Origin: Candidatus Gastranaerophilales bacterium
GTDB lineage: Bacteria; Cyanobacteriota; Vampirovibrionia; Gastranaerophilales; Gastranaerophilaceae
Assembly (NCBI GenBank): GCA_944325075.1
Contig: CALUYU010000015.1
Span: forward strand, 1-42,359
Direction of reading: 5' to 3'
DNA: 42,359 nt
The notes beneath the pieces are model-generated. The model was not told the origin of the DNA, did no database searches, and was given only the letters and a program-made list of their open reading frames with translations. Numbering within the stretch: position 1 is the first letter of the stretch; the number at the start of each line of letters is the position of its first letter. Positions 6,234 through 34,136 of the stretch are shown here, one piece after another. A program made the translations under genes and the position numbers.

Positions 6234-6992
6234 ATGTTTTCAGAAATGATTCAAAGCTTGTTGAATTCCGGCGGGAAGAGTGCTGCAATGCAGCGCTATG
6301 CAGCTTTAAACAATCAGGTTAATAATATTAAATCCAAGCTTCAGTCTCCTGTGCAGAATATCAGCCAAAATCCAATGGATACAATCTATCCTGCCAATAG
6401 ACAAATCAGCGGGTTTGAAAGTGTTTTGCAATCTTCTTCTCCCGCCAATTTTGGAAATCTGCTCTTAAACTCTCCGTCAATGCAGGTAAATGCATCTTTA
6501 GTAAATGGTACAAATTATGAGAATTTTAATGTGTATGATAACATTAAAGATATCAAGAACGAGGATGCTGTTTCCCAGGCAGGGGCGATTTTTCAGGGAG
6601 GATTTGCTAATGCTTCAAGATCCCAGCTTATTGGTATGATTGAGCAAGTGGCGGAAAAGCATGGAGTTGATGATAAACTTGTAAAAGCTCTTATCCGTCA
6701 GGAATCCGGATTTAATCCTAATGCAAAATCTAAAGCCGGAGCAATGGGGCTTATGCAATTAATGCCTGCAACGGCCAAGGCTTTAGGAGTGAATGACCCT
6801 TATAATCCTTTGCAAAATGTTGAGGGCGGCATAAAGTATTTAAAATCAATGCTGAATAAATATAATGGAAACATAATTTTAGCACTTGCGGCATACAATG
6901 CAGGGCCAAATGCTGTTGATAAGTATTCCGGCGTCCCGCCTTACAAAGAAACCCAAAATTATGTAAAGAGTATCTTAGCGAACTATTTATAA
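6234..6992 (+). CDS. Lytic transglycosylase (SLT domain) without a signal peptide
   Basis: The C-terminal half (about 140-252) is a Slt/GH23 lytic transglycosylase domain, which cleaves peptidoglycan glycan strands. Seen: RQESGF with catalytic E157, the [20 protein letters not shown] block and [10 protein letters not shown]. The first ~130 residues are polar, Asn/Gln/Ser-rich and low in complexity. There is no Sec signal, lipobox or membrane helix, although the substrate lies outside the cytoplasm. The protein therefore needs a non-Sec route (as known for flagellar or type III-associated transglycosylases), or the start is misplaced; the ATG used is the most upstream in frame after a candidate promoter. 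It is monocistronic; the next gene has its own promoter. Confidence 0.88.
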
Positions 6993-15635: not shown

Positions 15636-16457
15636 CTATAGATAAGGGTAGTCATCTTTGATTTCCCAACCGTCAAATTCTATGAGTCTCCCGCATCTTT
15701 GCGCATAAAGTTTACAATCTTCCAATATATCTGTTCTGTTCTTATTTTCAAATCGCATCAAATTGGCTCCTCCGGTTAAGGTCCAGTTTTCGCACATAAT
15801 GAATTTGGCCTTATTGGCAAATGGAATTTCTGAAACGAATATATCTTTTCCAACGGTATTTTTACCTTGTGGCCCGTTAATGTCCATATATAAGACCATC
15901 CCTCTTACAATCATTTTTCCTGTAACCGGATCTTGCGGGCTGGTATCCGCTGCTAATAGAATAACTGTCCCATTGTTAAGTCTTATAATCGGGCCGGAAT
16001 TGTCTAAATTGAACCATACTGAACCATCCGGAAAAACAATAGGTGTCTTGTACCCTAATTGTTTAAGAGTTGTAGTTTCAGTAAGCTGTGCTCCTGTCAA
16101 ATAAGGCATAATATATTTTTTTGCTATTTGAACCCTGAGTGCTCTGTTAGATGTTGTTTCATATTCTTGTTTGGCGTTACTTACTAAATCCCACTCCGCT
16201 ATCTCTCCACTATGCGCTTCCGCCATCCTAACTACATTGCTCATAATATTAAAATTAACCTTAAGTCTGTTAGTAATGACGTGTTTTTCGTAATTTTGAA
16301 TAAGTGTCGGAAGTGTCAGCGCCGCAACCACTCCAATAACACCTAAAGTTATTAAAACTTCAGCAAGAGTAAACGCCATTTTAGCCGCATGGCCAATAAC
16401 ACGCCGATTTGCAGTTCTGTACGCCACAAGAATATTAGTATCTTTTTTAATTTTCAT
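15636..16457 (-). CDS. Prepilin-like protein, paralogue A
   Basis: Type IV prepilin/pseudopilin-like protein, 273 aa. An unusually long basic leader (about 27 residues) precedes the cleavage site KMA/FTLAEVLITLGVIGVVAALTLP; the hydrophobic helix is followed by a pilin-like globular domain that ends FDGWEIKDDYPYL. It has only one copy of FTLAE, unlike its two paralogues in the window. GGAGG lies 5 bp before the ATG, with a TTGAAT-17-TATAAT promoter directly upstream. It is about half identical, by eye, to the gene at 16815-17645, and both share a near-identical upstream cassette, so they arose by tandem duplication. Surface pilus, secretion or adhesion roles are all possible. Confidence 0.85.
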   Translation of the reverse strand: MKIKKDTNILVAYRTANRRVIGHAAKMAFTLAEVLITLGVIGVVAALTLPTLIQNYEKHVITNRLKVNFNIMSNVVRMAEAHSGEIAEWDLVSNAKQEYETTSNRALRVQIAKKYIMPYLTGAQLTETTTLKQLGYKTPIVFPDGSVWFNLDNSGPIIRLNNGTVILLAADTSPQDPVTGKMIVRGMVLYMDINGPQGKNTVGKDIFVSEIPFANKAKFIMCENWTLTGGANLMRFENKNRTDILEDCKLYAQRCGRLIEFDGWEIKDDYPYL

Positions 16458-16476
16458 ATACCCTCCAGTTAAATAT

Positions 16477-16505
16477 ATTATACCATATTAAAAACCTTAA
16501 TTCAA
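16477..16505 (-). promoter_or_regulatory. Promoter of prepilin paralogue A
   Basis: Minus strand: TTGAAT, 17-bp spacer, TATAAT, ending 19 bp before the ATG, which implies a very short 5' UTR. Confidence 0.75.
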
Positions 16506-16572
16506 TATAAGTCATAAATAAAATTCCGCAGTACAAATCTGTGAAATAAATTAATTTCACCAAAATCAATTC

Positions 16573-16741
16573 TGCAAAACAAAAAACTTCTTAAATAATG
16601 ATACAGCAAAGCGTGAAAAACGTTACTAAAACTGCTAAAACCGGAGCTGTAACAAGTGCAAAGTCTCTTATACCAAGGGATTACACCCTTAGTCAGCCCC
16701 CCCCCCCATCGGGGAAATCCGCACTATGATTGGGTTTTGCA
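16573..16741. other. 169-nt inverted-repeat-bounded core element, copy A
   Basis: Bounded by TGCAAAAC and GTTTTGCA. It contains internal hairpins (AAGGG-TGTAAT-CCCTT and CCCC-GAT-GGGG on the minus strand) and a C11 homopolymer at 16697-16707. It is identical to copy B except for one base near the end. On the plus strand it can encode a 43-residue peptide beginning MIQQSVKNV whose C-terminus depends on the length of the C tract; no ribosome site is seen. It may be a non-autonomous mobile element, a structured RNA or an upstream control element. Confidence 0.55.
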
Positions 16742-16814
16742 TATATAGCACCTCCACGGTAAATACTATAATTACTTTTTTATTATACCATATATGTTTA
16801 AAATATTCAATTGT

Positions 16815-17645
16815 TTACCACCACGGGTAATCGTCTTTGATTTGCCATCCGTCAAATTGGATAAGCGCCCCGCAATATGTTCCGGTCGTTTTACAACTAG
16901 TCATTAAGGTGTTTCTGTTAACGAGTTCTAATGTTATTTGTTGCGTGTTACTATCAAATCCATAATTTTGGAAAAATATTAATTTAGTGTTATTAGCATA
17001 AGGTACTGTTGCCATGAATACATCTTTCCCTAAAGTATTTGAACCATTTGGCCCGTCAATATCAATAGTGAAAGTCATTCCCATTAAGTATTGTCTTCCA
17101 GTATCAGGCACATTGTTTGTTGATATTCCGATAAGCATTACTGTACCGTTTTTTAGTGTTAATATAGGGCCTGAGGCTGTTACCGGAGCATATGTTGAAC
17201 TACCTCTCTTCCACATAATAGGCCTTTTATATCCTAATTGAGCTAATGTTTTTGTTTCTGAATATTGAGCTCCGCTAAGGTATGGTAAAATGTATTTCTT
17301 AACAATTTCGCCAGCTTGTAATTTTGCGTTGGCTTTGTCATCCGATGAATAATCGGTATCATAATGACTACTTGTTTCTTCCCAAGATGTTATGTCCCCA
17401 TATTCTGCTTCGGCCATTCTTATTGCATTACTCAAAATATTATAGTTAACTTTTAATCTGTTGACTGTAACATGTTTCTGGTAATTTTGAATAAGATTGG
17501 GTAGCGTAAGTGCGGCAACAACACCTATAACGCCTAAAGTAATTAAAACCTCAGCCAGTGTAAACGCGACTTTGCGAGGCGGGTGGTCGTGTTGTGAAAA
17601 AACTTCTCCTAATGTGAATCTGTTTTCATTTTTCATCTTTATCAT
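16815..17645 (-). CDS. Prepilin-like protein, paralogue B, with one extra signal repeat
   Basis: Prepilin-like protein of 276 aa from the ATG at 17645, chosen because GGAGG lies 4 bp before it (an upstream TTG would add five residues but contain that ribosome site). The N-terminus has one 18-residue unit, FTLGEVFSQHDHPPRKVA, and then the true signal FTLAEVLITLGVIGVVAALTLP. The globular part parallels paralogue A (NRLKVNYNILSNAIRMAEAE, KKYILPYLSGAQ, LGYKRP, DIDGPNGSNTLGKD) and ends FDGWQIKDDYPWW. Its promoter and upstream cassette copy B match those of paralogue A. The conserved C-terminal GW-x-IKDDYP motif may matter for folding or sorting. Confidence 0.85.
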   Translation of the reverse strand: MIKMKNENRFTLGEVFSQHDHPPRKVAFTLAEVLITLGVIGVVAALTLPNLIQNYQKHVTVNRLKVNYNILSNAIRMAEAEYGDITSWEETSSHYDTDYSSDDKANAKLQAGEIVKKYILPYLSGAQYSETKTLAQLGYKRPIMWKRGSSTYAPVTASGPILTLKNGTVMLIGISTNNVPDTGRQYLMGMTFTIDIDGPNGSNTLGKDVFMATVPYANNTKLIFFQNYGFDSNTQQITLELVNRNTLMTSCKTTGTYCGALIQFDGWQIKDDYPWW

Positions 17646-17664
17646 TAATCCTCCAATCAAATAT

Positions 17665-25290: not shown

Positions 25291-26769
25291 TTATATATTT
25301 GTAACAATTTCTATAGGAAAATTGCAGCCTATTTCTTCTCTTGTTATTACGGTAATATCATTTAGGTAATTTGACAAAAGGGTAAAAAACAGATGCCGGT
25401 ATTCCATTTGAACAAGTATTTTAGGACTTTGGATTCCATACTGTTTTGATTTTTTTGCAATTTTAGCGGCCAGTTTTTCTGCAAAGTCTCCGTCTACTTT
25501 TATTATATAGTCGTCATCTTCTTCAAACCTTGGCGTAAATGCTTCTAATGTTTTGTCACTTATTTCAAAGACCTGTATAACTCCGTCTTGATTTACTAAT
25601 TTTTTGCATATATGTTTGGATAATGCAATTCTGATTTTTTTTAGCAAATCAGACTTTGGACAATCATCTGCATAGTCATTAAGTTTCTCAAAAATATATG
25701 TAATATCTTTTATTGATACTCTTTCTTTTACAAGATTAGATAATATGAATTTTAAATCAGCAGGAGTTATAAAATCAGGGATTACATTGTCGACCAGGAA
25801 AGGATTTGCCTGGGAGGCAATATTTATATATTTATCTATATCAGAGTAATCAAGCAGTTCGTCAACATATTTTACTGCATAAAATTCCAAAAGTCTTGCA
25901 ATATATTCTGAGCCGGTAACACCTTTTTCCCAAAAATCTTTTGTTTGGGATTGTTCCAGCCAAATAGTTTTTTTGCCGGTTATTACATCAATTCCGTATA
26001 TTGAATTTTTAGGCTTTTTCTCAAGATGAAGGTCTTCTGCAAAAAACATTGAATAAGACGGATAAACGCAGGATCTATGAACCTCCAGCCCTCTTATTTT
26101 TATTGAGAATTCGTAAGGATTAAGCGTTTCGTCATCTTTAAAAACAATTTTAGGAATAATATAACCGAGTTCGTCTGTAAGTTTTAATCTTGTTTTTACT
26201 GTTGCTGCCAGAAGTCCTTCTTCCTGAGGTTCTTTTTCTGTATTTAAGTAATCCAGTAATTCTTCACTCAGGTTTATTGACAGCTTATCTTCATGAAGCC
26301 TTGAGTACATAACATCAGGGGATGTTGCTTTTGATAATTTTTGTTTTAGATCATCCAGCTCCTTTAATCCCGCAGAAATTTTATCATTTAATTTTTTTCT
26401 GTTTACCGATGCCGGTGCTTCGCACTCTAGCTCAGATTTAATTTTTGATATTTTTTTCTGCTGGCTTACTATTTTTGATTGAATATCAATACAATTTTCA
26501 TAAGGCGTAAGTTCCGGAGAAAGCATTTTTTCCATTTGGCTTTTAAATGATGTTATGTTGATAATATCTCCGTTTCCGTTGTCTTCCGGTGATTTCAGTT
26601 CAGACATAAAAATACAGTTATACTTGAAACCGTCATCTGTTTCAATTTCGTTCATACTGTATAATTCCCAGCCGTTCATAGACATTTCGTTTAATAAATT
26701 CTGTAACTCCTGAGGATTATCACTTGAGCAGCTTTTTATTATGTATTGCATTCTGTTACTTTTAAACAT
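25291..26769 (-). CDS. Soluble FlhA cytoplasmic-domain (FHIPEP) protein with DUF4177-like N-terminus
   Basis: 492 aa. About residues 165-492 follow the C-terminal cytoplasmic domain of FlhA/SctV export-gate proteins in order: LTDELGYIIPKIVFKDDETL, NPYEFSIKIRGLEV, YGIDVITGKKTIWL, a helical block with VPDFITPADLKFILSNLVKERVSIKD-like spacing (about 330-355), and the end ILVQMEY...ITREEIGCNFPIEIVTNI, matching the family's SPEL...SYNEI...V ending. The ~320-residue membrane part of FlhA is absent. Instead there is an N-terminal DUF4177-like fold (about 6-58; LLNEMSMNGWELYSM) and a coiled coil (about 95-150). No flagellar or type III genes are in the window. FlhA-C normally forms the nonameric ring that receives chaperone-substrate complexes; what a soluble one does is unknown. 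AGGGA lies before the ATG. Confidence 0.82.
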   Translation of the reverse strand: MFKSNRMQYIIKSCSSDNPQELQNLLNEMSMNGWELYSMNEIETDDGFKYNCIFMSELKSPEDNGNGDIINITSFKSQMEKMLSPELTPYENCIDIQSKIVSQQKKISKIKSELECEAPASVNRKKLNDKISAGLKELDDLKQKLSKATSPDVMYSRLHEDKLSINLSEELLDYLNTEKEPQEEGLLAATVKTRLKLTDELGYIIPKIVFKDDETLNPYEFSIKIRGLEVHRSCVYPSYSMFFAEDLHLEKKPKNSIYGIDVITGKKTIWLEQSQTKDFWEKGVTGSEYIARLLEFYAVKYVDELLDYSDIDKYINIASQANPFLVDNVIPDFITPADLKFILSNLVKERVSIKDITYIFEKLNDYADDCPKSDLLKKIRIALSKHICKKLVNQDGVIQVFEISDKTLEAFTPRFEEDDDYIIKVDGDFAEKLAAKIAKKSKQYGIQSPKILVQMEYRHLFFTLLSNYLNDITVITREEIGCNFPIEIVTNI

Positions 26770-33110: not shown

Positions 33111-34136
33111 TTAACCGAATGTTTTGAATGTATCACCGGTATTTTTTTCAATAACTTTTTGAACAGCTTCTTTTTCTGTTTGAATAGCTTCCTGTTCAGT
33201 GTCTAGTTGTTTTAGTCTTAATTCAAGGTTTTTGTCTTCTGCCTGAATAATTTCTATTTGTGAGTTAATATCATTAATTTCCTGATCGTAAAGATATTTT
33301 TCATACTCATATTGGTTCATGGCGTCATTATATGCGTCCTGATCCGTAACTGTTTCGGTTGTAAGTGCATATTCCGTATAGATTGTTTCACCATTAACTT
33401 CTTCAGGAATACTCAATGAGATAAATCTTCCGGATGAATCTTTTTCAACTTTGCAGTTTTTAATTGCCTTAAATTCTTCAACTTTTTCTTCACTGCCTAT
33501 TGTGTAGCACTTAATATTACTTAATGAAGTGTTTGTTTTGTTGTCATAAGAGGCTGTTTCAAGCGAATTCTTTTCATAGAAATAAGGTTTTTCTGTTCCG
33601 GTTGAGGTGTCGGTAACATATCTTACCAGCCATTCACCGCTGCCGTATTTTTGTTCCAAAAGATTTAGCCATGCTTGTTCTTCGGCTTGTTTTGCAGCTT
33701 GTTTTTCCGGATCTGTTTCTTCAGGATCAACAGTCCCGAGTTCTCTAAGCTCTGAAGTTCCTACTGAATATACATAATCCGGTTCAGTCCCGGTTCTGGT
33801 AACAACACTTGTTGATGCAGCTACCGGTGCATAATCATCCTGCCATTTTGACAAATAGCTTATTGTATATGTACCGTTTGACTGTGCAATTAATGAAGTA
33901 ACTGTATTTGTTAATGCTCCATCTGCAAATGAGTAGATTGTTTTTGTATAATTATCTACTGACGGAGGTGTTGGAACGGTCATGCCTAGAAGGTCATTAT
34001 AGTAATTTGCAGATTGGTTGGACAACGTTGTACGCTGTTGGTTAATCTGCTGGCCTTCAAACTCGACGTTGTTTTGTCGAGCGGTCAAACCTAAAAATCT
34101 AGCTTGTGATGCGGCCATACCCATAATGGCATCCAT
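33111..34136 (-). CDS. Lineage-type protein of unknown function with C-terminal coiled coil
   Basis: 341 aa. It opens MDAIMGMAASQARFLGLTAR, then a polar NNVEFEGQQINQQRTTLSNQS helix. The middle (about 55-255) is Thr/Ser/Asp-rich with beta-like segments and one YVYSVGTSELREL stretch. The C-terminus (about 275-330) is a strong coiled coil (INDINSQIEIIQAEDKNLEL...) ending TFKTFG. There is no Sec signal and no membrane helix. The polar amphipathic N-terminus plus coiled-coil end resembles the layout of type III/flagellar axial proteins, but no family match can be claimed. AAAGGA abuts the first ATG, so the start may be the ATG at 34124 or 34118. It diverges from the EF-hand-like gene. Confidence 0.7.
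   Translation of the reverse strand: MDAIMGMAASQARFLGLTARQNNVEFEGQQINQQRTTLSNQSANYYNDLLGMTVPTPPSVDNYTKTIYSFADGALTNTVTSLIAQSNGTYTISYLSKWQDDYAPVAASTSVVTRTGTEPDYVYSVGTSELRELGTVDPEETDPEKQAAKQAEEQAWLNLLEQKYGSGEWLVRYVTDTSTGTEKPYFYEKNSLETASYDNKTNTSLSNIKCYTIGSEEKVEEFKAIKNCKVEKDSSGRFISLSIPEEVNGETIYTEYALTTETVTDQDAYNDAMNQYEYEKYLYDQEINDINSQIEIIQAEDKNLELRLKQLDTEQEAIQTEKEAVQKVIEKNTGDTFKTFG

Follow-up and report, generated by a model that had tools for sequence, protein, structure and literature searches.

Structure of the orphan FlhA-type protein

The analyzed stretch of 42,359 nucleotides (hereafter, the window) carries on its minus strand an ORF that starts with ATG 16 bases after deoA and encodes a 492-residue protein (Table 1); over the same interval, the plus strand is stop-rich. 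Residues 142-481 of this protein match the Pfam family FHIPEP (PF00771) with 157.2 bits (E 8e-46, cut-off 29.1), the only significant Pfam family found in it, and all 26 analyzed orthologs match this family as well. The match spans profile positions 312-653 of 657 and thus covers the linker and the cytoplasmic domain only, so that the eight-helix N-terminal membrane domain, the ion channel of the export gate, is missing. A phmmer comparison with FlhA-C of B. subtilis (3mix) gave E 3e-24. With the NCBIfam models, the protein scores 145 bits for FlhA (TIGR01398) and 76 bits for SctV, both far under the full-length cut-offs (772 for the FlhA equivalog). Judged by these scores, the protein, hereafter termed the orphan, is classified as a paralogous domain protein and not as FlhA. 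No transmembrane segment was found by 19-residue hydropathy, the maximum being 1.14 vs 2.96 in the full-length FlhA2 described below.

An AlphaFold2 model built on 51 orthologs (mean pLDDT 82.8, pTM 0.69) suggests the following architecture: (i) a beta-alpha-beta-beta domain at residues 7-57, (ii) a weakly predicted stretch at residues 58-88 with one helix at 72-83, (iii) a helical hairpin formed by helices 89-115 and 122-148, and (iv) a complete FlhA-C fold. Residues 157-492 of the model align with the nonameric FlhA-C of V. parahaemolyticus (7amy) with Z 29.4 and an rmsd of 2.7 Å over 329 residues. The orphan is therefore predicted to be a soluble FlhA-C fold with an N-terminal domain and a helical hairpin of its own. 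An earlier note, made from the sequence alone, had described a soluble FlhA-C domain lacking a membrane part and preceded by a coiled coil at about residues 95-150; the profile and structure matches confirm the first two of these claims and place the gene on the minus strand, and the coiled coil is confirmed as the modeled hairpin.

Table 1. Features of the window related to the orphan protein and to the second export system
Feature	Position	Strand	Evidence
Orphan soluble FlhA-C paralog, 492 aa	25291..26769	-	ORF; FHIPEP 157 bits; clade; dN/dS
N-terminal beta-alpha-beta-beta domain, residues 6-58, DUF4177-like (putative)	26596..26754	-	10 invariant residues; model pLDDT 88; single copy
Helical hairpin, residues 89-148, at the place of TM8 and linker of full-length FlhA	26326..26505	-	AlphaFold model
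FlhA cytoplasmic domain (linker end and D1-D4), residues 151-492	25294..26319	-	Pfam, phmmer, structure alignment
Ser168-Glu169-Glu170, replacing the conserved Gly368 hinge (Gly-Tyr-Arg in E. coli/Salmonella FlhA)	26260..26268	-	Ortholog residue counts; PMC9431611
SLT lytic transglycosylase of the second export system	6234..6992	+	SLT 118 bits; ortholog placement

The N-terminal region had previously been likened to DUF4177. Ten residues are invariant in this region among 26 orthologs (Y9, L26, N27, M29, W34, Y37, E41, C52, I53, and F54), and the separate AlphaFold model of the domain has a pLDDT of 88. The orphan scores 13.2 bits with DUF4177 (PF13783), below the gathering cut-off of 25, and 17 of the 26 orthologs match this family weakly (E up to 1, the best being 3e-4). 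The region is a real and strongly conserved domain, for which the DUF4177 label is only suggestive and membership in the family putative. A fold search of the PDB gave no clear structural relative of the domain (best Z 6.5, KCTD5), and a profile search of the genome detected a single copy.

Distribution, ancestry, and selection

FHIPEP proteins were surveyed in 57 genomes, 56 of which belong to the order Gastranaerophilales; those with named records belong to Candidatus Gastranaerophilales or to further Melainabacteria from the gut. The survey revealed three kinds of proteins: (i) FlhA1, the flagellar FlhA, which scores about 860-890 bits and is present in some genomes only, (ii) FlhA2, a second full-length FlhA, which scores about 670-730 bits and is present in almost all genomes, and (iii) the orphan with the C-terminal domain only, which scores about 142-184 bits, is encoded by ORFs of approximately 490 aa, and was found in 52 of the 56 genomes of the order. 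The lengths of the orphan ORFs range from 360 to 544 aa, with the 360-aa one located at a contig start.

In the phylogeny, the 52 orphans group together in a single clade (100/100 support), whose branching follows the families. Between the orphan of the window and its nearest relative, a 92% identical protein, dN is about 0.04 and dS about 1.7, the latter near saturation, which argues for strong purifying selection. These data indicate that the gene arose once, has been inherited vertically, and is under purifying selection. The possibility that the orphan is a decayed FlhA fragment, raised in the earlier note, was rejected because of the single clade, the intact ORFs, and dN far below dS.

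No orphan was found outside the order in a class-wide sample, where other orders have the full-length FlhA2-type protein and the flagellar FlhA. Since the orphan occurs in 52 of the 56 genomes of the order, forms one clade, and is absent from the other orders sampled, its distribution identifies it as an innovation of this order, retained since the ancestor of the order. Four genomes of the order have FlhA2 and lack the orphan. The orphan of the window (P0001) scores about twice as high against full-length FlhA2 as against FlhA1 (150 vs 75 bits). Its branch in the tree is long and fits either a split from FlhA2 or an earlier one, with a sister relation to FlhA2 or to all FlhA. Flagellin is absent in 25 of the 52 orphan carriers; the orphan is thus not tied to the flagellar filament.

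Soluble FlhA-C proteins other than the orphan clade also exist, as judged from two genomes. In G003 (L096 8216-10123, minus strand), a 635-aa protein joins the N-terminal part of a relative of the FliG-position protein described below to the C-terminal part of FlhA; its FHIPEP match begins at profile position 255 and may thus extend into the last membrane segments. A related 593-aa protein with the same kind of joining is encoded in G024 (L097 8042-9823, minus strand). Neither belongs to the orphan clade, and both have long branches.

A second, filament-less export system

The earlier note described the window as showing no flagellar genes and the ring as lacking the gate. An organism without the gate or flagellum-like genes is not supported, as the genome encodes FlhA2 and most of a second apparatus, and the window carries an ortholog of its transglycosylase (Table 1). 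In the genome of the window (G000), one operon of this apparatus encodes FliE, FliF, an unassigned protein, FliH, and FlhA2 (contig C46, L033 10589-16675). The gene at the FliG position (L033 12672-13721) has neither a FliG match nor a match to any family, and its product is possibly a novel component of the C-ring or a linker. The other operon encodes a 409-aa SctQ-like protein with two SpoA matches, FliO, FliP, FliQ, and FliR; FliI and two Flg_bb_rod matches were found in addition. Relatives further have FlgB, FlgC, two FlgF/G-like, FliJ-like, FliK-like, and FlgE/F/G-like proteins, and FlhB. A complete core (FliP/Q/R, FlhA, FlhB, FliI, and FliF) together with the rod proteins FliE, FlgB, and FlgC is present in the related genome G017.

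The genome search suggested in the earlier note thus recovered FliP/Q/R and FliI in G000, and FlhB only in relatives. The whole export core of G000 was found except FlhB, which was detected neither by profile search nor by DNA synteny. The nearest sister genome carries FlhB on a 3.9-kb contig, so that the absence in G000 is likely due to an assembly gap.

No flagellin was found in G000 or in any genome of its genus. In the flagellated families, the second set is present beside the flagellar one, with two full-length FlhA proteins, two strong FliI matches, and usually two FlhB and two FliP proteins. Because the two sets coexist there, we consider the second set to be a separate filament-less export system and not the remains of a flagellum. 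The presence of FliE, FlgB, and FlgC, the marker genes for the flagellar type according to Abby and Rocha (PMC3459982), assigns it to this type. Where gut species have partial sets of flagellar genes, these have previously been taken as incomplete or lost flagella (PMC3787301, PMC4040986). In the open-licence literature, no soluble FlhA paralog was found, nor was a second type III system for these bacteria; a filament-less flagellum-like secretion system in gut Gastranaerophilales therefore seems to be undescribed so far.

In operons of the second system, orthologs of the transglycosylase gene of the window directly precede fliE (e.g., L038 12484-13101 and L039 3796-4413), and the copy in the window stands apart from that operon. 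In three genomes of two families, a sigma-factor-like gene adjoins flhB of the second system (L235 8914-9588, plus strand; L239 9021-9683, minus strand; L242 10185-10850, plus strand) and may control this system.

Conserved replacements in the hinge and the chaperone pocket

In Salmonella FlhA, Gly368, a residue of the GYXLI motif, drives the opening and closing of FlhA-C (PMC9431611). This position is occupied by Ser in 51 of the 52 orphans, as opposed to Gly in all 22 FlhA2 and all 25 FlhA1 proteins, and position 370 (Glu170 of the orphan) is Glu in all 52 orphans. The chaperone dimple of Salmonella FlhA is formed by Asp456, Phe459, and Thr490 (PMC8166844). Asp456 is retained in 50 of the 52 orphans, Phe/Tyr at position 459 is replaced by Thr/Ser in 45, and Thr490 is mostly replaced by Arg (24 of 52); the dimple thus reads mostly D/T/R in the orphans vs D/Y/T in 18 of the 22 FlhA2 proteins. 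These changes in the hinge and the dimple are conserved lineage-specific replacements, not drift.

The linker residues Glu351, Trp354, and Asp356 of Salmonella FlhA grip the neighboring subunit (PMC8166844). The orphan has P151/M154/Y155 in its linker, the same as FlhA2 (Pro/Met/Tyr). With the borders of D1-D4 placed where we take them to be, agreement of the orphan with the FlhA2 consensus is higher in D1+D3 (73 of 173 positions) than in D2+D4 (40 of 148; Fisher P 0.005), a drop that is absent between FlhA1 and FlhA2. The most diverged domain of the orphan is D4. This pattern suggests that the ring-building surface may have been retained and the moving and cargo-binding parts altered.

Gene neighborhoods and proposed role

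In the family of the window, the orphan is located amid deoA, skp, bamA, and malQ, the commonest order being rsmI-bamA-skp-...-orphan-malQ, and no type III genes are adjacent to it. This pattern is confined to part of the family; the neighbors differ between families, and the gene is retained elsewhere. In two flagellated genomes of one genus (L037 and L040), the orphan adjoins fliJ-fliK-flgD-flgE, where flgE is probably the flagellar hook gene. Assignment of function by gene-neighborhood association was abandoned, since the neighbors change between families.

FlhA-C is the cargo docking ring in flagella and injectisomes. We propose, with a probability of about one half, that the orphan is a specialized soluble FlhA2-like paralog that acts on the cytosolic docking ring of the second system by mixing or stacking, and that holds, gates, or re-sorts substrates. 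The orphan would dock on, mix into, or stack below the cytoplasmic ring of FlhA2 via D1/D3 and the linker motif; as a subunit of reduced mobility, it would not accept the usual chaperones; and the anchoring or partner binding provided by the membrane domain in FlhA would fall to its N-terminal domain and helical hairpin. In broader terms, the orphan is probably an extra part or a regulator of the filament-less machine. This role is supported by the order-wide presence of the orphan beside the FlhA2 system, by its single clade under selection, by its flagellin-free carriers, by the replacements in the hinge and the dimple, by its higher score against FlhA2 than against FlhA1, and by the linker and the ring-building domains D1/D3 being closest to FlhA2. 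It is weakened by several observations: (i) the orphan has no neighborhood link to the second system in the family of the window, (ii) the fliJ-fliK-flgD-flgE neighborhood belongs to flagellated species, (iii) FlhA2 manages without the orphan in four genomes of the order and in other orders, and (iv) the long orphan branch also fits a split before FlhA2. The earlier note envisaged a repurposed stand-alone docking ring without a gate. Repurposing is plausible, and the orphan may form a ring by itself, but it is an extra soluble copy beside FlhA2, an intact gate protein. Tentatively, the type III machine, common in gut Gastranaerophilales, might have two kinds of docking subunit, the membrane-anchored FlhA2 and the soluble hinge-altered paralog, whose mixed or stacked rings choose the substrates for the gate.

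A somewhat unlikely alternative is that the orphan never enters the FlhA2 ring and is instead a soluble decoy or stand-alone adaptor, whose cytosolic targets would be type III substrates, FliJ, or regulators and which would either limit export or couple it to gene expression. Such a role would suit a soluble protein with an additional N-terminal domain and hairpin, with altered hinge and dimple, and with D4, the domain that contains the FliJ-binding cleft (PMC8166844), as its most diverged domain. However, the linker motif and D1/D3 closest to FlhA2 would not be needed by a pure decoy, and no gene neighborhood speaks for it.

Less probable is a repurposing of the FlhA-C fold outside type III export, e.g. 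as a scaffold in envelope biogenesis or metabolism. It is the rsmI-bamA-skp-...-orphan-malQ order with no adjacent type III genes that points in this direction; nevertheless, the limitation of this order to part of one family and the presence of FlhA2 in almost all orphan carriers argue against it. Finally, a part for normal flagella persisting as a relic in non-motile species, as the L037/L040 neighborhood and the earlier interpretation of partial flagellar sets as loss (PMC3787301, PMC4040986) might suggest, is very improbable and already disfavored, since the orphan is present and constrained in 25 flagellin-free genomes, is closer to FlhA2 than to FlhA1, and is absent from flagellated relatives in other orders.

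Comparison with known systems

The orphan shares the complete, predicted D1-D4 fold with FlhA-C of Salmonella, Vibrio, and B. subtilis (Z 25-29, about 20% identity). It differs from FlhA in having no membrane domain, in having the N-terminal domain and the hairpin, and in the replacement of the hinge glycine and two of the three chaperone-pocket residues. The fold is also shared with the cytoplasmic domain of SctV/CdsV from injectisomes (Z 21-28), although the orphan sequence is nearer to FlhA by the NCBIfam scores given above.

A free C-terminal domain, Spa33-C/SctQ-C of Shigella, is needed in a type III system as a partner of its full-length counterpart (PMC4832279), and thus sets a precedent for the partnership proposed for the orphan. 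Spa33-C, however, is a C-ring component produced by internal translation within a single gene, whereas the orphan is encoded by a separate diverged gene with new domains and derives from the gate protein. Buchnera has filament-less flagellar basal bodies and export genes, whose role is not known (PMC8109811); the abstract mentions no soluble FlhA copy. The system described here likewise has flagellar-type basal body and export genes without a filament; in contrast to that of Buchnera, it forms an additional set, found in other families alongside real flagella.

The fold itself is known; as far as the open-licence literature shows, the combination of the N-terminal domain, the hairpin, and FlhA-C without the gate, present order-wide beside a filament-less system, is new. 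How cargo is sorted by the opening and closing of FlhA-C is an open question, on which a natural soluble copy bears: with its hinge glycine replaced and its chaperone pocket altered across the order, the orphan already presents the ring apart from the gate. The finding also directs attention to gut relatives of cyanobacteria, whose flagellar genes were formerly taken as partial or lost flagella, and to their second export system, which has no filament.

Other observations in the window

The gene at 33111-34136 (minus strand) encodes a 341-aa protein without a Pfam match, the start of which (MGMAASQARFLGLTARQNNVEFEGQQINQ) is shared with other proteins of the order; it is possibly a secreted or hook-like substrate. 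Two neighboring pilin-like proteins encoded at 15636-17660 (minus strand) have near-identical N-terminal methylation motifs (FTLAEVLITLGVIGVVAALTLP), and this motif is repeated in many genes of the genome.
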